Shown in pieces: positions 8,450-28,133 of a DNA stretch of 64,000 nt (positions within the stretch are counted from its first letter, which is position 1; the number at the start of each line of letters is the position of its first letter). The notes below the pieces were generated by a model that was not told the origin of the DNA, searched no databases, and saw only the letters and a list, made by a program, of their open reading frames with translations. The DNA is from an uncultured Jannaschia sp. (GTDB lineage: Bacteria; Pseudomonadota; Alphaproteobacteria; Rhodobacterales; Rhodobacteraceae), in contig NZ_CANNEZ010000001.1 of the NCBI RefSeq assembly GCF_947503795.1, forward strand, positions 735,001 through 799,000, written 5' to 3'. Position numbers and translations under genes: made by a program.

Positions 8450-9625
8450 ATGGCGAAGGCAAAATTCGAACGCACGAAACCGCATGTGAACATCGGCACG
8501 ATCGGTCACGTTGACCACGGCAAGACGACGCTGACGGCTGCGATCACGAAGTATTTCGGCGACTTCAAGGCGTATGACCAGATCGACGGCGCGCCCGAGG
8601 AGAAGGCCCGCGGGATCACGATCTCGACGGCGCATGTCGAGTACGAGACCGAGAACCGCCACTACGCGCATGTCGACTGCCCGGGCCACGCGGACTACGT
8701 CAAGAACATGATCACGGGGGCCGCCCAGATGGACGGCGCGATCCTCGTGGTGAACGCGGCCGACGGCCCGATGCCGCAGACGCGCGAGCACATCCTGCTC
8801 GGTCGCCAGGTCGGCATCCCGACCATGGTCGTCTACATGAACAAGGTTGACCAGGTCGACGACGAGGAGCTCCTGGAGCTCGTCGAGATGGAGATCCGCG
8901 AGCTTCTGTCGAGCTACGAGTATCCCGGCGACGACATCCCGGTCATCCCGGGCTCGGCGCTGGCGGCGATGGAAGGCCGCGACGAGGAGATCGGCGAGCA
9001 GTCGATCCGCAAGCTGATGGCGGCGGTGGACGAGTTCATCCCGACGCCCGAGCGCGCCGTGGACCAGCCGTTCCTGATGCCGGTCGAGGACGTGTTCTCG
9101 ATCTCGGGTCGCGGCACGGTCGTGACGGGTCGCGTCGAGCGCGGCGTGATCAATGTCGGCGACGAGATCGAGATCGTGGGCATCCGGGACACCAAGAAGA
9201 CGACCTGCACGGGCGTCGAGATGTTCCGCAAGCTGCTGGATCGCGGCGAGGCGGGCGACAACATCGGCGCGCTGCTGCGCGGCGTGGATCGGGACGGCGT
9301 CGAGCGGGGCCAGGTGCTCTGCAAGCCGGGCTCGGTGAAGCCGCACACGAAGTTCGAGGCCGAGGCCTACATCCTGACCAAGGACGAAGGCGGGCGCCAC
9401 ACGCCGTTCTTCGCCAACTACCGCCCGCAGTTCTACTTCCGGACGACGGACGTGACGGGGACGGTGCAGCTGGCCGAGGGCACGGAGATGGTGATGCCGG
9501 GCGACAACGTGTCGTTCGGGGTCGAGCTGATCGCGCCGATCGCGATGGAGCAGGGCCTGCGCTTCGCGATCCGCGAAGGCGGCCGCACGGTGGGTGCGGG
9601 CGTGGTCTCGAAGATCACCGACTGA
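8450..9625 (+). CDS. tuf: Elongation factor Tu
   Basis: 391 aa from the ATG after AGAAGGAG. An upstream in-frame TTG at 8432 lies inside the Shine-Dalgarno region and is not the start. G1 GHVDHGKT (19-26), DCPGH (76-80) and NKVD (131-134) are intact. It delivers aminoacyl-tRNA to the ribosome. Last gene of the str operon; hairpins follow at 9633-9690. Confidence 0.98.
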
Positions 9626-11910: not shown

Positions 11911-12527
11911 AACTCGACGTCATCAAGATGGACGGCTCCAAGGCCGGCTCCGTCGAACTCAGCGACGAGGTGTTCGGCCAGGAGCCGCGCCGCGATATCC
12001 TGTACCGGGTCGTCCGCTGGCAGCGCAACAAGGCGCAGGCCGGGACCCACAAGGTCAAGACCCGCTCCGAGGTCAGCTATTCGACCAAGAAGATCGTCCG
12101 GCAGAAGGGCTCCGGCGGCGCACGCCACGGCTCGCGCAAGGCGCCGATCTTCCGCAAGGGTGGTGTCTACAAGGGCCCCACGCCCCGCAGCCACGGTCAT
12201 GAGCTGACCAAGAAGGTCCGCCGCATGGGCCTGCTGCACGCGCTGTCGTCTAAGGCGGCCGCGGGCAAGCTGGTGATCCTCGACGCGGCGAACCTCGAGG
12301 GGGGCAAGACCTCCGCGCTGGCGCGTCAGGTCAAGGATCTCGGCTGGAAGCGCGCGCTGATCATCGACGGCGCAGACGTCAACGAGGATTTCGCGCAGGC
12401 CGCGCGCAACCTCGGCAACGTGGACGTGCTGCCCTCGATGGGCGCGAACGTCTACGACATCCTCAAGCGTGACACGCTCGTGCTCACGAAGGCGGGTGTC
12501 GAAGCTCTGGAGGCGCGACTCGCATGA
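11907..12527 (+). CDS. rplD: 50S ribosomal protein L4 (uL4)
   Basis: 206 aa. It has the exit-tunnel extension region ([21 protein letters not shown]) and the conserved end region [17 protein letters not shown]. It overlaps rplC and rplW by ATGA at both ends, so translation is coupled. In enterobacteria L4 autoregulates the S10 operon; whether it does so here is unknown. Confidence 0.97.
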
Positions 12528-12808
12528 ACACCTACGACGTGATCCGCAAGCCGATCATCACCGAGAAGGCCACGATGGCGTCCGAGACGGGCGCCGTGGT
12601 CTTCGAGGTCGCGATCGACGCAAACAAGCCCCAGATAAAGTCCGCCGTCGAAGAGCTCTTCGGCGTCAAGGTGAAGGCCGTGAACACGACCATCACCAAG
12701 GGCAAGGTCAAGCGCTTCCGCGGCCAGATGGGCCGTCGCAAGGACGTCAAGAAGGCGTATGTGACGCTTGAAGAGGGCAACACCATCGACGTGACCACGG
12801 GCCTCTGA
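12524..12808 (+). CDS. rplW: 50S ribosomal protein L23 (uL23)
   Basis: 94 aa, complete ([15 protein letters not shown] start, [12 protein letters not shown] end). It sits at the tunnel exit and docks trigger factor and SRP. The last 168 nt (12641-12808) recur, about 90 % identical, at 14232-14399. The canonical next gene rplB is 4.1 kb away. Confidence 0.97.
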
Positions 12809-12848
12809 CGGGGCGGCGGGGTCACCCCGCCGGTGGTTTGCGAATGAA

Positions 12849-12877
12849 GGGCCCCGCCGGGAACGGCGGGGCCCTTT
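12849..12877 (+). terminator. Intrinsic terminator after rplW
   Basis: A perfect 11-bp stem (GGGCCCCGCCG / CGGCGGGGCCC) with a GGAA loop and a short T-tract. It closes the rpsJ-rplW transcript. Closely similar hairpins recur at 14437 and 15855. Confidence 0.9.
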
Positions 12878-13106
12878 CCCATTGCGGGCCGATGCAATGC
12901 GGCGGGCCCACCGGCGAGGCGACGAAAAGGTTCGATATCCTGCGCGACGCCGCGCGCGCGGACCGATGCCCCTCGCGGTGCGCGGCTCTGGCAGAACGAT
13001 GTCCCGCAAGCGGGTGGTTCGGAGGGACGCCCTCCCGCCGCAGCCATTTGATCCGCCCCGCCAAGGGCCATACGTCCCGCTGACTGCGGAACGGGCGGAG
13101 GCGCAC

Positions 13107-14162
13107 ATGTTGCTGGAACAATTGGATCTGGGGCTCGAGGCTCGCGTCCTTCACGTCCTTCTCGGAGCCGCGATCGGCCTCGTTTTCGGCATCGCGGCCC
13201 AGATTTCGCGCTTTTGCCTGCGCCGGGCCGTGGCAGGCGATCCTGACGAGCGGTCGGGGGCTGCGGGGGTCTGGATGACCGGCCTCGCGGTCGCGATCCT
13301 CGCCGTCCAGGGTCTGACCCAGGCCGGGTATATCGACCTCGGCGATCACCGCTGGCTGTCCTCGGACCTGCCGGTCGCGGCGCTCGTGGTCGGCGGGCTT
13401 CTGTTCGGCGTGGGAATGGTCCTGACGCGGGGCTGCATCTCGCGGCTCAGCGTTCTAGCCTCCTCCGGCAACCTGCGCGCGGTCACGGTCATTCTGGTTT
13501 TCGCGGTCACCGCCCACGCCATGCTGAAGGGCGTGCTGGCCCCGGTCCGCACCGCCATCGGCGGCGTGACGATCGAGAGCCCGGTCGCGACCCTGACGCA
13601 GCTTCCGGGCGGCGTGTGGCTCTGGACGGCTGTCGCGGTCCTGCCGCTCCTTCTGTTCGCGTGGCGCTCCGACGCGCGCCGCACCGACCTCCTCCTCGGC
13701 GGGCTGATCGGGCTGGTGGCGGCGGCCGGCTGGGCGGGCACCTCCGTCCTGCTCTTCGATGAATTTGACCCCCTTCCGGTCCAGAGCGCGGCCTTCACCC
13801 TTCCGTGGACGGACACGCTCTTCTGGACCATCGCGTCCACGGCCATCCCGGCCTCCTTCGGGGTGGGCTTCATCGGCGGCGTCGTGACCGGGGCCTTCGC
13901 CTCGGCCACCGCCCGGCGCGAGTTGCGTCTGGAGAGCTTCGAGAGCCCCGGCCAGACCCTCCGCTACGCCTCGGGTGCGGCGATGATGGGCGCGGGCGCG
14001 GTGTTGACCGGCGGCTGCACCATCGGCGCCGGGATCGCGGGCGGCGGCGCTCTGTCGGTCGCGGCCCTCGTGGCGCTGGCCTCCGTCGTGGGCGGGGCGT
14101 TGCTGGCAAAGACGGTGCAGACCGGCGGACTCGCCGGACGGCCAATCGGCGCTTCCGGCTGA
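13107..14162 (+). CDS. YeeE/YedE-family sulfur transporter
   Basis: 351 aa from an ATG 6 nt after GGAGG. An integral membrane protein with two DUF395/Sulf_transp halves. It keeps the three Cys positions typical of thiosulfate-transporting YeeE/TsuA proteins: Cys37 (SRFCLRR), Cys110 (TRGCISR) and Cys304 (TGGCTIGAG). The likely role is uptake of thiosulfate or a related sulfur species across the inner membrane, inferred from the family. It is a single-gene unit inserted between rplW and a second copy of the rplW 3' end. No TusA-like partner is nearby. Confidence 0.85.
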   Translation: MLLEQLDLGLEARVLHVLLGAAIGLVFGIAAQISRFCLRRAVAGDPDERSGAAGVWMTGLAVAILAVQGLTQAGYIDLGDHRWLSSDLPVAALVVGGLLFGVGMVLTRGCISRLSVLASSGNLRAVTVILVFAVTAHAMLKGVLAPVRTAIGGVTIESPVATLTQLPGGVWLWTAVAVLPLLLFAWRSDARRTDLLLGGLIGLVAAAGWAGTSVLLFDEFDPLPVQSAAFTLPWTDTLFWTIASTAIPASFGVGFIGGVVTGAFASATARRELRLESFESPGQTLRYASGAAMMGAGAVLTGGCTIGAGIAGGGALSVAALVALASVVGGALLAKTVQTGGLAGRPIGASG

Positions 14163-14166
14163 GGCG

Positions 14167-14200
14167 GCCTCCGGGAGGCTGGCGCCAGCCTCTCCGAGGC
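14167..14200. repeat. Nested palindrome after the YeeE/YedE gene
   Basis: An 18-bp perfect palindrome (GAGGCTGGCGCCAGCCTC, 14175-14192) is nested in an outer GCCTC/GAGGC repeat. It has no T-tract. It lies 5 bp after the transporter stop and 32 bp before the rplW duplicate, so it may be a transcript-end structure or a recombination junction. Confidence 0.6.
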
Positions 14201-14231
14201 AGGGTCCGGTCCCGACAAGCCTTAGATCGGG

Positions 14232-14399
14232 TCCGCTGTCGAAGAGTTCTTCGGCGTCGAGGTGAAGGCCGTGAACGCGATCATTCCCAAGGGTAAGGTC
14301 AAGCACTTCCGCGGCCAGATGGGCCGCCGCAAGGACGTCAAGAAGGCCTACGTGACGCTCGAAGAGGGCAACACGATCGACGTGACGACCGGGCTCTGA
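14232..14399 (+). pseudogene. Duplicated 3' end of rplW (56 codons including stop)
   Basis: 168 nt that align without gaps to 12641-12808, with 17 mismatches counted by eye (about 90 % identity). The frame is intact to the stop and encodes the L23 C-terminus from [14 protein letters not shown] to DVTTGL. There is no start codon, no RBS and no N-terminal half, so it is not a functional L23. Most differences after the first third are synonymous, as expected if this copy diverged in a related genome under selection before arriving here. Confidence 0.93.
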
Positions 14400-14436
14400 C
14401 CGGACGGCGGACAGAACCCCGCCCTTGGAACGACGA

Positions 14437-14463
14437 GGCCCCGCCGGAGACGGCGGGGCCTTT
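14437..14463 (+). terminator. Intrinsic terminator after the rplW duplicate
   Basis: A perfect 10-bp stem (GGCCCCGCCG / CGGCGGGGCC) with a GAGA loop and then TTTGCTTT. It holds the same relative position and nearly the same sequence as the true rplW terminator, so the duplication includes the terminator. Confidence 0.85.
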
Positions 14464-14528: not shown

Positions 14529-15242
14529 CTAGTTCACGCGGACACGCCGCACGCCCATATCCGTGGAGCGCAGCGTGTAGGTAAAGACCCGCTTCGAATA
14601 GACGCCGTGCTTGAAGTAGAACCGGCTTGAAAGGATGGCATCCGGTCGCTGCGATGGCGCATACCGACCGTCGATCTGCACTGCGCCATCGAGCCAGACG
14701 ACAGACCTGAAACCTCCGGACCCGTCAAACTGCACCAGGACCTCTAGAAGCTGTTCGGTTCCGTCACGCTTGACCCGGGCTGGTGACGTGCCGCCGATTG
14801 TCCCTCGGATGCAGGACTCGCCCGGTCCCGTCTTGATGTCGCTGGCGATATACATGCGCCCATCCTCGCGGACGAAGAGTTGGAGCGGCGGAGCGCAGCC
14901 ATTGCGTCCATCGTGGATGGAGAAGATGCTGAATTCATTGTTGGTTGGTGTCGTAAAGCTGGTCGTGGTCGAGAACATGAAGGCGCCGCTTCGGTTGGTC
15001 GGATAATCCTCCGTGAAGATCTCAGCCCGCTGATTGAACGTCCCGCCCGTGCAGTAATTCCGGCTCGTCGAGAATACCCACGTTCCGCGGCTTCTCTGGA
15101 TCGAGCCGGGATCCGCCCCGCAGGAAACCTCCCATCGGTTGAGCGATTGCGCAGATGCGGGGCCAGTCAGAAATCCTGTGGATGCAATCAAAGTCAAACC
15201 GATCAAAGCGGCAAAGACCCGAGCAATGTTGGTCTGGTGCAT
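14529..15242 (-). CDS. Secreted polysaccharide-lyase-like protein
   Basis: 237 aa with a signal peptide (hydrophobic residues 8-28, cleavage near PASAQ). The C-terminal YFKHGVY (209-215) resembles the YFKAGxY motif of jelly-roll polysaccharide lyases (PL7/heparin-lyase-like), with a typical beta-sandwich pattern before it. A GGAG ribosome-binding site precedes the ATG. GC is visibly lower than in the flanking ribosomal genes. It may cleave an acidic polysaccharide outside the cell. The family match rests on short motifs, so it could be a non-catalytic concanavalin-like protein. Confidence 0.5.
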   Translation of the reverse strand: MHQTNIARVFAALIGLTLIASTGFLTGPASAQSLNRWEVSCGADPGSIQRSRGTWVFSTSRNYCTGGTFNQRAEIFTEDYPTNRSGAFMFSTTTSFTTPTNNEFSIFSIHDGRNGCAPPLQLFVREDGRMYIASDIKTGPGESCIRGTIGGTSPARVKRDGTEQLLEVLVQFDGSGGFRSVVWLDGAVQIDGRYAPSQRPDAILSSRFYFKHGVYSKRVFTYTLRSTDMGVRRVRVN

Positions 15243-15387
15243 TCGTTACTCCGTACGAACCATCGATCAGGTAGTTGTACGGCATTTGGCCCGTCTGGCG
15301 ACATATCATTTTCGATACTGTGCCCAAGTCCGCCGTCCCAAGTTTGTTTGTAGCTCCGCGACCCCGTCCATGCTCACTTGCGCCTCG

Positions 15388-15858
15388 GACCGGGATCAAG
15401 GCCGAAGGCGTGCCGGCGCGGGACATGTCGGTGAAGATGAAGGTCAGCTCGTAGCGTCCCGGATCGGGCAGGCTCATCCCGGCGGTGATGTTGTTCCAGA
15501 ACTGCGTCTCGTCCACCGGATAGAGCAGCGTCGAGGGCGCGGCATAGGTGTGCAGCTTGGCGCGTCCCAGCTCCGCACCGCTCTCGTCCGCGACGCGCAG
15601 ATGCAGGTCGATCTCGAACCGCATGTCCATCGTGCCGGGCTGCGCGCGGGCGACATGTTCGAGATAGGCGCGCAGGAAGATCTCCTCGTTCGGCGCATAG
15701 ACATTGCTCTCCCGCGCGAGGTAGCGGCCACGGTCGTCGCGCCGGTCCTTGTGGGCGAGATAGGCGGAGTGGACCCCGATCGGAGGCATCATCTCCTGCA
15801 TCGCGATGGTCTGCGCGTCGATGTAGATCGGCGGCGTCCGCGCGCCGGTCTCGTCCCG
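15388..15858 (-). pseudogene. Internal fragment of an unidentified gene
   Basis: About 157 codons of good high-GC coding sequence without a stop, from RDETGARTPPIYIDAQ through DMSRAGTPSALIPV. The 5' side stops exactly at the terminator-like hairpin at 15855. On the 3' side the frame continues into lower-GC sequence that no longer looks coding and overlaps the lyase gene. Both ends of the original gene are therefore missing. Its family was not recognised; the beta-rich pattern (FEIDLHLRVAD, GRYELTFIFTD) suggests a sandwich domain. Confidence 0.6.
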
Positions 15859-15877
15859 CCGGGAACGGCGGGGCTTT
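15855..15877 (+). terminator. Third rplW-terminator-like hairpin
   Basis: CCCGCCG / CGGCGGG with a GGAA loop and CTTTCTGGTTT after it. The core CCCGCCGGGAACGGCGGGG is identical to the true rplW terminator at 12849. It abuts the truncated gene fragment and lies 70 bp before the next gene. Confidence 0.65.
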
Positions 15878-15945
15878 CTGGTTTCATATTGTCGCCACCA
15901 GTCGTGACTTTTATCCGCCTAGCTGACTTCCCTAAGGACGAGAGT

Positions 15946-16632
15946 ATGAAGCCCGTTTCGCAACAAGATCGTACGCTCGCAGTCGAACTGGCGGTGTCCC
16001 TCTCCAGCTGGCTTAAATCTCATCTGGATGTCGTCACGTGGCGTGAACTGGATGAAAGCACGCCGGCCGTCTACAATATGGGACTGTCGTCACACGAAGC
16101 TGGATGCCAAGCACTGAATGCGGTTGGGGTGTTCGAGCAGGCCGACCACTACACGACCCATTACGTGCGCGTTTCGCCTGTGGACGTCCGACAGCACATG
16201 GAGCAGCTGCAGTCCCTATCATCGGACAAGCTGGCACTTCTGCTCGATGCATTCATAGGTGGGCCCGTCGCCCATTCTGCGCTGCTCCCAACCCACCGAG
16301 AGGCATTTCAGGTTCCGAACTCTCTTGAAGGTTTGGCACGGCGACTGACCGATTCCGGCTATCTCGACGCTGACGGAAACGGAAAGCGATGGACTGACAA
16401 GATTACGAGTTTCATGCACAAGTGGTCCGTCTGGACAGATGGTCGTGCACCGCTTTCCGCAACTCCCGACGGTGTCGAGGTCTTCTGCGCTGGCCTATCG
16501 GCGGCAGACCGAGATCGCCTTCTCGAGACCTATCGAGGCAACGGGTACATCGCTGCCCTCCAGCTTCTCCGAAGCATCGCAGGCTTGGAACTGAAATTCG
16601 CCAAGGACGTGCTCGACTTTTTGGTGCGCTGA
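15946..16632 (+). CDS. Hypothetical protein with L7/L12-CTD-like C-terminus
   Basis: 228 aa from the ATG giving MKPVSQQDRT; the RBS is AAGGACGAG, and the longer upstream frame is non-coding. Residues 1-195 are unrecognised, soluble and mostly helical. Residues 198-226 (GNGYIAALQLLRS, then AGLELKFAKDVLDFL) match the pattern of the ribosomal L7/L12 C-terminal domain, KI.AIK.VRE.TGLGLKEAKDLVE. In L7/L12 this helix pair contacts translational GTPases. Base composition is lower in GC than the r-protein genes. Function unknown. Confidence 0.7.
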   Translation: MKPVSQQDRTLAVELAVSLSSWLKSHLDVVTWRELDESTPAVYNMGLSSHEAGCQALNAVGVFEQADHYTTHYVRVSPVDVRQHMEQLQSLSSDKLALLLDAFIGGPVAHSALLPTHREAFQVPNSLEGLARRLTDSGYLDADGNGKRWTDKITSFMHKWSVWTDGRAPLSATPDGVEVFCAGLSAADRDRLLETYRGNGYIAALQLLRSIAGLELKFAKDVLDFLVR

Positions 16633-16770
16633 AGGTGCGTTTCGAATACGGGCATTACGTCCAGTCCCACCGAGCCTAGGCGCGCGCGGGGGTAGGCTAC
16701 CGTACCTCCCTAATCGCCTGACCCGCCCTTGACCCCACCCCCCAACCCTCCTAGACGGCCCCATCCCGAC

Positions 16771-16800
16771 CACCCCGGATTCGTCCGGGGTGTCTCTTTT
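16771..16800 (+). terminator. Intrinsic terminator upstream of rplB
   Basis: A perfect 9-bp stem (CACCCCGGA / TCCGGGGTG) with a TTCG tetraloop followed by TCTCTTTT. It ends transcripts from the inserted region, so rplB needs its own promoter in the 92 bp that follow, or anti-termination. Confidence 0.85.
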
Positions 16801-19775: not shown

Positions 19776-20396
19776 ATGCCCGACCTCTCCTCGCTCTTCG
19801 TGACCCGCCTCTACCGGGCCGCCCTGTCCGAACACGGCCCCGCCATCGTCGCGGGTGAGCTCGAGGCGTCCTGCCTGTCCATCGCCGAGGATGACGAGGC
19901 GGGGCAGGCGTGGTGCGAGGAGAACGACTTTCCGGGCTACACGAGCTACGCCTCGCTCACCGATCTGGGCTGGCGCTTCCCGATCTTCGCGGACCTGACC
20001 CGCGCGCTCGATGCCCATGTCGCGGCCTTCGCCGAGGACCTCGCGTTCGACCTCGGCGACAAGTCCCTGACGCTCGAGGATCTCTGGATCAACATCCTGC
20101 CCGAGGGCGGCATCCATACGGGCCACCTGCATCCCCATTCGGTAATCTCGGGCACGACCTATGTGGCGATGCCCGAGGGCACGAGCGCGATCCGGTTCGA
20201 GGACCCGCGCCTGCCGATGATGATGGCCGCCCCGGTGCGCCGCAAGGACGCCCGCCCCGAGATGCGGACCTTCCACTACGAGGCGCCGAAAGTGGGCGAC
20301 GTGCTGCTATGGGAAAGCTGGCTGCGCCACGAGGTGCCGATGAACATGTCAGAAGAGGACCGGATCTCGGTGAGTTTCAATTACCGGTGGGGGTAG
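19776..20396 (+). CDS. Putative 2OG-Fe(II) oxygenase (TIGR02466-like)
   Basis: 206 aa, single domain. Candidate metal ligands His117/His119 (GHLHPHS) and His185 (SWLRHEVPMN), and candidate 2-oxoglutarate-binding Arg197 (RISVSFNY), match the PF13759/TIGR02466 layout. Such enzymes hydroxylate unknown substrates; in this family neither substrate nor pathway is established. It sits alone between rplP and the toxin-antitoxin module. Confidence 0.75.
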   Translation: MPDLSSLFVTRLYRAALSEHGPAIVAGELEASCLSIAEDDEAGQAWCEENDFPGYTSYASLTDLGWRFPIFADLTRALDAHVAAFAEDLAFDLGDKSLTLEDLWINILPEGGIHTGHLHPHSVISGTTYVAMPEGTSAIRFEDPRLPMMMAAPVRRKDARPEMRTFHYEAPKVGDVLLWESWLRHEVPMNMSEEDRISVSFNYRWG

Positions 20397-20497: not shown

Positions 20498-20683
20498 ATG
20501 GACGTCAAGATCGAACGCGAAGCCGTGGAGGGTGGAACGCTGGTGCGCGACGCGCGGACCGGCAAGCTGATTTCCGTGCAGACCGGCTCCTCCGAAAGCT
20601 ATGTCGATCCGGCAAGTCGGTCTGCCGGGGAAACAGTCGCGCACCGGCGCAGGGACGCGATGGAGCGTCTTCTCAATCGCTGA
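20498..20683 (+). CDS. Probable antitoxin of a Fic/Doc module
   Basis: 61 aa, starting at an ATG 7 nt after AGGGG. N-terminal half MDVKIEREAVEGGTLVRDARTGK; charged Arg-rich C-terminus (HRRRDAMERLLNR). No family was recognised with confidence. The call rests on size, position just before a Doc-like gene, overlap with it, and the palindromic operator upstream. Confidence 0.6.
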   Translation: MDVKIEREAVEGGTLVRDARTGKLISVQTGSSESYVDPASRSAGETVAHRRRDAMERLLNR

Positions 20684-21059
20684 CGACGTCTATCAGGTCA
20701 CTTTGTCCGACGCTCTGGAGATGCACGAGATCGCACTCTCCTTCGGTGGACGTTCGGGAATCGTCAGTTTGGCCATGGTCGAGTCCGCGATTGGCCGACC
20801 TTATCACGGCTATTACGACAGCTTGGCGGACATGGCCGCAGCGCTCTTGGAAAGCATGGTCAAGAACCATGGCTTCGCCGATGGCAACAAGCGGTCGGCA
20901 TGGTTGTTGACCGAAATGATGATCGACCGCAGCGGCTATCGGCTGGACATACCCGACGACGAGCGAGTCGACGATCTCGTGGTCGCTCTGGCCGAGGGCA
21001 GCGCGGATTTTGAAGAGGCGCGGACATGGTTCGCGGACAGGTTGGCCCGGTCCGCCTGA
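20601..21059 (+). CDS. Fic/Doc-family toxin (death-on-curing type)
   Basis: The Doc-like fold is clear: FGGRSGIVSLAMVESAIGRP, then the Fic motif HGFADGNKR (residues 90-98 of this frame). Doc proteins phosphorylate EF-Tu and stop translation; Fic relatives AMPylate other targets. The start is uncertain. Family homology begins around YQVTL, but the only ATG before that is at 20601, overlapping the antitoxin by 83 nt; an in-frame TTG at 20703 gives 118 aa. It ends 143 bp before rpmC. The true product is probably 118-152 aa. Confidence 0.78.
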   Translation: MSIRQVGLPGKQSRTGAGTRWSVFSIADDVYQVTLSDALEMHEIALSFGGRSGIVSLAMVESAIGRPYHGYYDSLADMAAALLESMVKNHGFADGNKRSAWLLTEMMIDRSGYRLDIPDDERVDDLVVALAEGSADFEEARTWFADRLARSA

Positions 21060-25987: not shown

Positions 25988-26710
25988 CTATCCGGGCAGG
26001 TGGCTCCCCGGAGCCGACGCCCGCCCGACCACCAAACACCCCAAAGTCCGCTCCAGCGCCGCCACCAGCTCCTCCACCGTATCGGCCGAGGCGAAGATGC
26101 CGCCGGTCCGGTCGGCCATGCAGCGCGAGATGATTTCGCCTGAGAACCCCCCCGAACGCTCGGTGCCGTAGCTGCGGGCGAAGGTGTCCCACACCGCCTT
26201 GAAGCCGATGACGTGGATCGTCAGGTTGACGGCCTCGGAGGCCAGTCGGTCGGCCATCGCGCAGGGCGTCCCGCCGCAGCTTTCGTTGCCATCGGTCACC
26301 AGCACCACGACCCCCGGCTGCGCGCGGTGGTCGAGCGTCCGGGCGGCGAGGTCGACGGCGGCGGAGAGCGGGGTCAGGCCGCCGGGCTGGATCGCGTCGA
26401 CGGCCGCGATTACGGGGTCCGCCGCCGCGACGCGCGGCCCGAAGCGCAGGTCGATGCCGCTGCAGGCGCCGGGCCCGCCGGGGCCGTAGGTCACGAGGCC
26501 GATGCGCCGCGTGTGCTCGACGCGGGGCAGCACCTCGGCCACCGCCTCGCGGGCTTCGTGGATGCGCTGCACGGTCGAGCCGCCGAGGCCGGGGCTGATC
26601 ATCGAGGCGGAGGCGTCGAAGACCAGCATCGCGTCGACGGTGCACTCGGCCTGGGCGCTCTGGACGGCCAGCGCGGCCGAGAGAAGCGCGGCGAGCCCCC
26701 GGCGCGCCAC
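25988..26710 (-). CDS. Secreted von Willebrand factor A domain protein
   Basis: 240 aa. A signal peptide (residues 1-21, ending QSAQA) precedes one VWA domain. The MIDAS motif DASAS is at residues 32-36, and the later [15 protein letters not shown] segment supplies another conserved Asp and a Cys pair. Likely periplasmic or exported, binding a divalent cation and a protein partner. It is the second gene of a two-gene unit, 3 nt after its paralogue, and both are antisense to the spc operon. The partner is unknown. Confidence 0.82.
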   Translation of the reverse strand: MARRGLAALLSAALAVQSAQAECTVDAMLVFDASASMISPGLGGSTVQRIHEAREAVAEVLPRVEHTRRIGLVTYGPGGPGACSGIDLRFGPRVAAADPVIAAVDAIQPGGLTPLSAAVDLAARTLDHRAQPGVVVLVTDGNESCGGTPCAMADRLASEAVNLTIHVIGFKAVWDTFARSYGTERSGGFSGEIISRCMADRTGGIFASADTVEELVAALERTLGCLVVGRASAPGSHLPG

Positions 26711-26713
26711 CGC

Positions 26714-27409
26714 TCAGGGCCGCCCGTGCAGGGCGAGGTCCCCGATCACGAGGCATCCGAGCGTCCGTTGCAACGCGGCGACCAATTCGTCCACGGTCTC
26801 GGTCGACACGAACAGACCGCCGGTGCGATCCGCGAAGCACTTGGCCACGGTGTCGCCGCCGAACTCCTGCTGCTCGGGATTGTCCCAGGCGAAGAAGTCG
26901 CGCGCAGCCCGGAAGCCGACGACATGCACCGTCAGGTCCGAGGCCCCGTCCATCATCCGGCGCGAGGTGGCGCAGGGCGTGCCGCCGCAGGTTTCGTTGC
27001 CGTCGGTCACCAGCACCACGATCGCGGGCCGGGTGCGGTAGGCCAGCGTTTCGGCCGCCGCCTCGACCGCTGCCGACAGGGGCGTCAGCCCGTCGGGCTC
27101 CAGCGCGTCGATGGCCGCGATGACCGGCGTGGCAGCCCGGTCGCGGGGCAGGAAGCGCAGGTCGATGCCGTCGCAGGCATCGCCATCGCCGGGTCCGTAG
27201 GTCAGAAGGCCGATGCGGCGGATGCCCTCGATCAACGGCAGGGCGCGGGCCACCGCCTGCCGGGCCTCGGCGATGCGGGTCGCGGGCCCGGTCTCGAGCG
27301 TGATCTCGGCCATCGAGGCCGAGCCGTCGAAGACCAGCATCGCATCCGTGGCGCAATCCTGTGCCGCGGCGGGCAGGGCGAGGAGGGCGGAGAGGGCGAG
27401 GGCGCGCAT
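26714..27409 (-). CDS. Secreted von Willebrand factor A domain protein (paralogue)
   Basis: 231 aa from the ATG giving [17 protein letters not shown], which creates a clean signal peptide; longer upstream frames lack one. MIDAS DGSAS is at residues 28-32; [15 protein letters not shown] matches the downstream paralogue. Clear full-length paralogy with 25988-26710 (shared [41 protein letters not shown]). The two are probably a tandem duplication that kept both copies. Confidence 0.82.
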
Positions 27410-27450
27410 GCCGCCAAGGGTGCCACAGAGGCGCGCGCGCACCAAACCCT

Positions 27451-27539
27451 CATCCTCTGGCCCAAAATACCTCGCGGGGTTCGCCAAGGGGGGCCGCGCC
27501 CCCCTTGGTCCGGGGTGCGCGAGGGGGCGGGCCCCCTCG
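27451..27539. repeat. GC-rich intergenic palindromic element
   Basis: An AT-tolerant leader (TGGCCCAAAATACC) is followed by two strong hairpins: CCAAGGGGGGC / GCCCCCCTTGG (27484-27508, 11 bp) and GAGGGGGC / GCCCCCTC (27521-27538). The layout resembles the dispersed intergenic repeats common in Rhodobacterales genomes. One copy is seen in this window, so the repeat status is inferred. Confidence 0.5.
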
Positions 27540-27668
27540 CTTGCCCCCTTGCATCGCCCGCGCCCCGGCTGTAGGGCCGCGCGGTGGCCGAATGCGCCAC
27601 GTACCATCACGATATGCCGCGTCCGCCCCACATCGCTTCGGGGGCGCGTCCGGCCAAGGAGAAGCGAC

Positions 27669-28133
27669 ATGAAACTCAACGAACTGCGCGACAATCCCGG
27701 CGCCACCCACAAGCCCAAGCGCGTCGGCCGTGGCCCCGGCTCGGGCACCGGCAAGATGGGCGGCCGCGGCATCAAGGGCCAGAAGTCCCGCTCCGGCGTG
27801 GCGATCAAGGGCTACGAGGGCGGCCAGATGCCGCTCTACCAGCGCCTGCCCAAGCGTGGCTTCAACAAGCCCAACCGCAAGAGCTTCGCCGTCGTGAACC
27901 TGGGCAAGATCCAGGAGTTCATCGACGCGGGCAAGCTCGACGCCGCCAACATCACCGAGGACGCGATGGTCGAGTCGGGGCTGGTGCGCCGCAAGCTCGA
28001 CGGCGTCCGCGTGCTGGGCAAGGGCGAGCTGACCGCGAAGGCCGCGATCACCGTCACCGGCGCGTCCAAGGGCGCGGTCGAGGCGGTCGAGAAGGCCGGC
28101 GGTTCGGTCACGCTTCCGGCAGCGGCCGAGTAA
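27669..28133 (+). CDS. rplO: 50S ribosomal protein L15 (uL15)
   Basis: 154 aa from the ATG giving [22 protein letters not shown], after AAGGAGAAGCGAC. The Gly/Arg-rich N-terminal extension is typical. Resumes the spc gene order with secY. Confidence 0.97.

Follow-up and report, generated by a model that had tools for sequence, protein, structure and literature searches.

The ribosomal protein gene rplW (L23) of this uncultured Jannaschia species is followed by an inserted sulphur transport gene of the YeeE/YedE type, and behind that by a second, truncated copy of the rplW 3′ end. Most likely this extra piece is the gene's own old end, displaced by the inserted transporter gene together with a new end. 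The window, i.e. the whole stretch of DNA analyzed, has a length of 64,000 nt and comes from an assembly of 3.46 Mb in four contigs. Elements homologous to the rplW 3′ end plus its terminator also lie behind cargo genes in relatives, above all in Ruegeria. We refer to these elements as tails. The explanation that we favor, and consider reasonably probable, is homologous recombination of a cassette carrying rplW-like arms.

The functional rplW is intact and occupies positions 12524..12808 of the + strand. Its nt 1–191 (to position 12714) are like those of the sister species, and nt 213–285 (12736–12808) have probably been replaced. Repeat analysis places the terminator hairpin at 12847..12876 (+); this is a strong terminator, and the segment 12800–12885 folds with z = −4.9. 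The tail lies at 14215..14399 (+). BLAST comparison of rplW with the gap aligns rplW nt 101–285 with these positions at 88% identity (E = 1e-65), so that the tail begins about 17 nt to the left of the limit given in a preliminary description of this DNA; similarity left of 14215 is weaker. The tail's terminator was located at 14435..14462 (+) by repeat and terminator analysis. Positions 12641–12808 and 14232–14399 align over 168 nt without gaps at an offset of 1591 nt, with 17 differences, 11 synonymous and six non-synonymous. On recount the length, the number of mismatches and the number of synonymous changes reported in the preliminary description all proved exact. Both 3′ ends have the same orientation and are followed by a terminator, and in a repeat search the hairpins (12850–12876 and 14437–14463) are 89% alike. 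The same search returned a longer repeat pair of 236 nt and 83% identity (12584–12819 and 14175–14410). The tail is the sole second match to rplW in its genome at E ≤ 0.001. The rplW DNA model detects it with E = 5e-50, and reversed gap sequences gave no match at E ≤ 1, so the repeat is beyond chance. Its reading frame is interrupted by upstream stops and it therefore cannot make L23, as had been stated.

Which of the two ends is native can be judged from the pattern of changes. We polarized the differences using the sister species G014 and G009, dropping three of the 17 sites where these disagree; the 14 sites at which they agree could be assigned. Between rplW nt 118 and 191 eight changes are private to the tail and none to the functional rplW, but between nt 213 and 285 five are private to the functional gene and one to the tail. 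This split gives P = 0.003 in a Fisher test, for a break point picked after inspection. The functional rplW differs from that of G014 at 0 of 74 positions in nt 118–191, compared with 9 of 73 in nt 213–285. Over these last 73 nt the tail has four differences from G014 and three from G009, and the functional rplW has nine and seven respectively. Even the nearest of 225 rplW sequences differs from nt 213–285 of the functional gene at seven positions. In the tail, then, nt 118–191 are decayed and nt 213–285 are native-like. The simplest reading of the sequences is that a yeeE cassette with an already decayed tail may have joined the native rplW by a single crossover between nt 191 and 213. The likely place would be a 21-nt block at 12715..12735 (+), which is identical in rplW and tail. 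The tail of G014, the second Jannaschia case, has no clear switch of changes.

The preliminary description had proposed that the second copy was imported together with yeeE from another genus. We regard this as very unlikely. The preponderance of synonymous changes (11 of 17, where random changes would give 24%; P about 5e-4) is in its favor, and the part of the proposal that invoked divergence under selection holds for part of the divergence between rplW and tail. That the second copy is the foreign one is not supported. The best matches of the tail, among the sequences compared, come from its own species and the sisters and not from another genus, and it is the 3′ part of the tail that is sister-like and that of the functional rplW that is odd. 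The direction of import is probably the reverse of that proposed. Nor did we find a donor in which a yeeE-like gene follows rplW. The closest YeeE relative in 19 other genomes of the genus is 39% identical, and the relatives at 49–57% identity in 11 genomes of other genera do not lie beside rplW.

A local tandem duplication had been named as the alternative. In this case the copy of the rplW 3′ end would have decayed neutrally after it was made, and yeeE would have come independently. The tail is close to its own rplW (17 differences in 168 nt), and the three-way distances between rplW, tail and G014 are nearly star-like (17, 16 and 12), which would suit such an origin. It should however lead to even decay, and of the tail-specific changes eight lie left of nt 192 and one right of nt 212. 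The switch in the pattern of changes, which occurs between nt 191 and 213, is hard to reconcile with plain duplication. The same arrangement recurs with other genes in Ruegeria and several further genera, which speaks for a common process. We therefore judge local duplication to be quite unlikely. Displacement of the old end by an incoming one remains our preferred reading.

The inserted gene extends over 13107..14162 (+) and matches PF04143 with E = 1e-41. An inverted repeat directly after its stop codon (14167..14200, +) is probably the end of the inserted gene. The tail begins about 52 nt past the stop, at rplW nt 101, unlike the tails of Ruegeria. From the tail and its terminator to rplB there are a further 2.4 kb or so with two poorly understood open reading frames (ORFs), neither with a Pfam match: one of 237 aa at 14529..15242 on the − strand, and one of 497 aa, the longest, at 15139..16632 (+), where the true gene limits are uncertain. 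The right border of the insertion region is rplB (L2; 16893..17735, +). Its leader contains a hairpin with a T run (16771..16792, +). Also in front of rplB is a promoter-like site TTGACC-N17-TAGACG (16729..16757, +) that was missed by a consensus promoter scan. The pattern TTGACC-N15–19-TAnnC is present upstream of rplB in 13 of 15 genomes of the genus with a long rplW–rplB gap, compared with 0 of 3 with a short gap. This agrees with an operon that is split between rplW and rplB.

Other non-ribosomal genes lie within the S10-spc region of the window, at 19776–20396, 20601–21059 and 25988–27808. They encode a 2OG-Fe(II) oxygenase, a Fic protein, and a VWA protein with an adjacent ORF that partly repeats it. 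The oxygenase has relatives of 77–80% identity in the ribosomal clusters of G028 (L162, 2928–3542) and G021 (L164, 11121–11735), and for that reason it may represent an insert of older date that these genomes have in common.

The rplW–rplB gap is a site of frequent insertion among relatives. We collected 112 distinct loci from this and related genera of the Rhodobacteraceae, 99 of them with rplB on the same stretch. The gap measures 4–265 nt in 23 of the 99 loci, and 383 nt to 10 kb in the other 76. In two of the 76 (L080 and L098) rplB is inverted, and their gaps were taken to end at the inverted gene. We predicted 164 cargo ORFs in 75 gaps, including one (L098, 450 aa) that is antisense on the inverted rplB, and 107 of the 164 match no other ORF of the set. 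The cargo that we examined by Pfam name consists of ordinary genes: sulphur transport, fatty acid desaturase, aldose epimerase, sulfotransferase, DJ-1, DoxX, YceI with MarR, and AAA_33. Among the matches listed (25 of 87 Pfam and 25 of 64 PHROG families, for 127 of the 164 ORFs) there was at least one transposase, and no recurrent recombinase or integrase. A defence island was considered and rejected, since the families concerned (AbiU, TIR-TM, PD-T4-6 and others) were hit by one member each among the matches listed (25 of 46; 127 ORFs). Across related genomes the cargo flanked by these two core genes varies, as expected of an integrase-free hotspot, and recombination within a flanking core gene is seen in the rplW/tail switch of the window and in the F1 and F2 junctions described below.

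In a first survey we scored as tails truncated rplW 3′ ends that matched the rplW DNA model with E < 1e-3. By this criterion 15 of 90 gaps contain tails, 22 altogether, and every one of them is oriented like rplW and extends to its 3′ side (nt 267–285). The next weaker match, in L079, has E = 0.007 and lies on the opposite strand, and no pieces of rplD were found in the gaps. The second survey was of the Ruegeria group, defined as the genus of G100 and including loci named Ruegeria, where 53 of 54 genomes gave an rplW match; seven loci are common to both surveys. Here there are 45 tails in 27 of the 53 loci, with up to four per locus. The limit was set at E = 0.05, and the weakest of the 45 has E = 6e-4. 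By contrast, 60 loci from other genera had no tail, although four positive controls were detected. These loci were not random. They were chosen for resemblance to Ruegeria rplW and for sufficient flank, and some are records of the first survey, but genera surveyed before are omitted, including that of G198 (the L141 locus, which has a tail), as are G236 and G065, each with a second rplW match. The stretches of L233, L241 and L258 end early at a contig end. Outside Ruegeria tails occur in two Jannaschia genomes (that of the window and G014) and in L079, L085, L132, L137, L139 and L141. Given the absence of tails from the 60 loci, the process is common in Ruegeria and sporadic elsewhere.

By the rplW model the left edge falls at rplW nt 178–210 in 47 of 54 tails. 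Local alignment to the rplW of the same genome places 33 of 54 there, with alignments partly running into the cargo, and edges at nt 101, 132 and 235 also occur. At the right, 27 of 54 local alignments stop at nt 336–346, corresponding to the end of the terminator, with the query cut at nt 355. In 44 of 54 cases the stop codon of the cargo is no more than 15 nt away from the tail, which holds for 140 of 3240 (4%) random positions in the same gaps; the window is one of the 44 by its model edge, and the count is 43 if its BLAST edge is used. The cargo preceding the tails falls into 14 clusters, and the clustered left edges are seen across different cargo families. A cluster of AAA_33 genes is common to L132 and L139, with 70% identity. 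For five cargo families the tails diverge by 0.24–0.38 and the synonymous sites of the cargo by 0.26–0.42. Since these values are about equal, the tails look like relics. A role of the rplW 3′ end as a functional RNA element was also considered, but rejected on account of this divergence and because codon use there is under no special constraint. The tails of G100, G133 and G130 consist of a short decayed stub and, behind it, an intact, readable L23 end. As predicted, this would be the mark of recent recombination with rplW. The near-pristine tail of G100 already has a short edge, so that slow trimming is not needed.

The clustering of left edges raises the possibility of a site-specific recombinase that cuts a conserved site at about nt 178–210, with the attachment site of the cassette restoring the rplW 3′ end as in islands at tRNA genes. 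The 47 edges placed there by the model across cargo families are what such an enzyme should produce. The abutting stop codons resemble integron cassettes, and the nt 178–210 region of rplW can form a hairpin, although a weak one (z = −1.5). Yet local alignment leaves only 33 of the 54 edges in this interval, with others at nt 101, 132 and 235, and the listed cargo matches include at least one transposase but no recurrent recombinase. The integron integrase model TIGR02249 gave no match over the cut-off in any of ten genomes. Weaker tyrosine-recombinase matches, among which such an enzyme may lie, were present in all ten, and also in 14 of 14 controls. On balance we judge a site-specific enzyme to be unlikely.

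In Ruegeria the insertions behave like cassettes. A small set of genes is found again and again in permuted order, always on the + strand: F1 in 22 of 22 copies, F2 in 14 of 14, F3 in 12 of 12, F6 in 9 of 9 and F17 in 4 of 4. F2 precedes F1 in G110, G112, G116, G127 and G146, and follows it in G115 and G117. F3 precedes F1 in G112 and G116 and follows it in seven genomes; it precedes F2 in G115, G117 and G138 and follows it in G111, G112 and G116. Half of the 22 F1 copies lie directly behind rplW and the other 11 behind various genes. Nine of the latter nevertheless keep the context of the rplW stop codon in front of them, the exceptions being G112 and G127.

In G111, G127, G130, G134, G141, G142 and G146 the leader of F2 directly follows the rplW stop codon; a hairpin of 12 pairs lies between this stop and F2 itself, and the F2 ORF begins 77–89 nt on, so the junction comprises leader only. 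In G115 and G117 other genes separate rplW and F2, and the identical junction of stop codon and leader sits on a decayed tail. Because it bears the junction otherwise found on functional rplW, this tail is an rplW end parted from its gene by inserts. These sequences suggest that the rplW end now on the gene is part of the inserted unit. What the F1 and F2 junctions demonstrate is either displacement or excision, its reverse; the order of events is not given by them alone. When Ruegeria sequences were grouped by their first cassette, the ratio for the rplW 3′ end (1.47) was almost the same as that for the upstream rplD (1.46).

We suggest the following mechanism. The junction between rplW and rplB would be an operon boundary at which inserts are tolerated, with a terminator followed by what is probably a promoter of rplB's own. 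Incoming DNA with the order rplW 3′ end, terminator, promoter and gene would enter rplW through homologous crossing over within the gene. In this scheme rplW remains complete, as its 3′ end is renewed from the incoming DNA, and the old end with its terminator would be shifted behind the inserted gene as a useless tail. Since rplW-like arms flank the inserted gene, the cassette may pop out and re-insert in another genome by ordinary recombination, and in the same manner cassettes could be stacked and reordered. The observations beneath this scheme are the tails with their orientation and limits, the permuted order in Ruegeria, the F1 and F2 stop junctions on decayed tails, and the switch in the window. 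RecA, rather than another recombinase, would presumably be the agent, and the DNA may arrive by transformation or in a gene transfer agent. The genome of the window carries the gene transfer agent marker PF13547, which is present in 1 of 14 controls. It also has a ComEC domain, but this is unspecific as it occurs in 10 of the 14.

The way in which a gene is first joined to a tail is a part of the model that we infer. Here homology-facilitated illegitimate recombination, with one homologous and one non-homologous junction, is relevant; it is known in other bacteria (PMC3240628). Each insertion might arise by a crossover in rplW, random end joining and then trimming to the cargo stop. This accounts for new junctions of gene and tail, and for the mirror-image case of L115, in which a 44-nt 5′ piece of rplB (E = 5e-10) lies at 1578–1648 of the gap, perhaps together with part of the rplB leader (a weak match, E = 0.16). 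Taken alone, however, it predicts neither the clustered left edges nor the permuted order nor the repeated use of the same junctions, and the short-edged, near-pristine tail of G100 leaves no need for slow trimming. As the explanation of each insertion it is possible but has a fairly small chance of being correct. It may nevertheless be the first step of the recombination model that we favor, and the two are not exclusive. In comparison with that process, the units here seem to travel with their junction, after which both flanks are homologous.

Plain homologous recombination does not explain the clustering of left edges at nt 178–210. This preference and the initial union of gene and tail might be due to preferred break sites, to a site-specific recombinase, or to illegitimate joining with later selection. 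We tentatively offer a further idea, for Rhodobacteraceae and Ruegeria above all, to which we would give only a small chance: these could be integron-like cassettes that lack an integron integrase. A dedicated process at a fixed site in rplW would join the stop codon of a gene to the last 80–110 nt of rplW plus the terminator, and the arrays would be gained, lost and reordered within the S10 operon, each insertion swapping the rplW 3′ end.

Integron cassette arrays consist mostly of one-gene units in fixed orientation and permuted order, with a repeated element behind the stop codon. The rplW-tail units share all of these features, but the repeated element consists of a ribosomal gene 3′ end from the host itself, with its terminator, and they occur in genomes of which none among the ten searched has an integron integrase over the cut-off. 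Genomic islands at tRNA and other genes replace the 3′ end of their target and leave the old end displaced on the far side, and accretion is possible. Here too the rplW 3′ end is replaced, the old end lies on the far side and accretion can be repeated. Unlike such islands, these are small units of ordinary genes with no integrase seen in the cargo matches listed, and the length of the repeat varies, being 185 nt in the window.

Hotspots that lack mobile elements and show recombination at flanking core genes are known (Oliveira et al. 2017, PMC5635113). The present case differs in that its flank is part of the S10 ribosomal operon and in that displaced rplW ends have been left behind, in Ruegeria as arrays. 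Our literature search, with subscription papers outside its coverage, returned no title on rplW tails or an rplW–rplB hotspot. These structures can be compared between genomes and show how genes could be gained at a hotspot with no integrase of its own. An essential ribosomal gene would serve as the homology arm and be repaired by the incoming DNA, with a scar left. Because tails make single insertion events countable, the link between hotspots and homologous recombination becomes directly testable. The observations also contradict the usual view of the S10 operon as an invariant block. The earlier suggestion that a ribosomal protein gene can act as a recombination anchor for gene gain is thus supported, both in the window and in a series of relatives.

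Some further rearrangements were observed in these regions. The rplB gene is inverted or moved relative to rplW in G028 (L162/L163), G141 (L080/L185), G132 (L098/L180), G135 (L181) and G154 (L211), and the rplB side carries one or two tails in G135, G141 and G154. The gap of L082, where rplB is displaced, has a minus-strand match to the middle of rplB at 8580–8956 (E = 9e-13). In G003 another complete rplW, accompanied by the final part of rplD (L042, 1879–2284), is 98.5% identical over 406 nt and lies 1.36 Mb from the other rplW. This copy ends at the rplW stop codon, and each of the six differences inside rplW falls on a third codon position. Finally, the window has an extra hairpin at 15853–15874 whose 19-nt core is the same as that of the rplW terminator. 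Its alignment score is 45, compared with a maximum of 41 in 200 shuffled sequences, and it is perhaps the last trace of an older unit.
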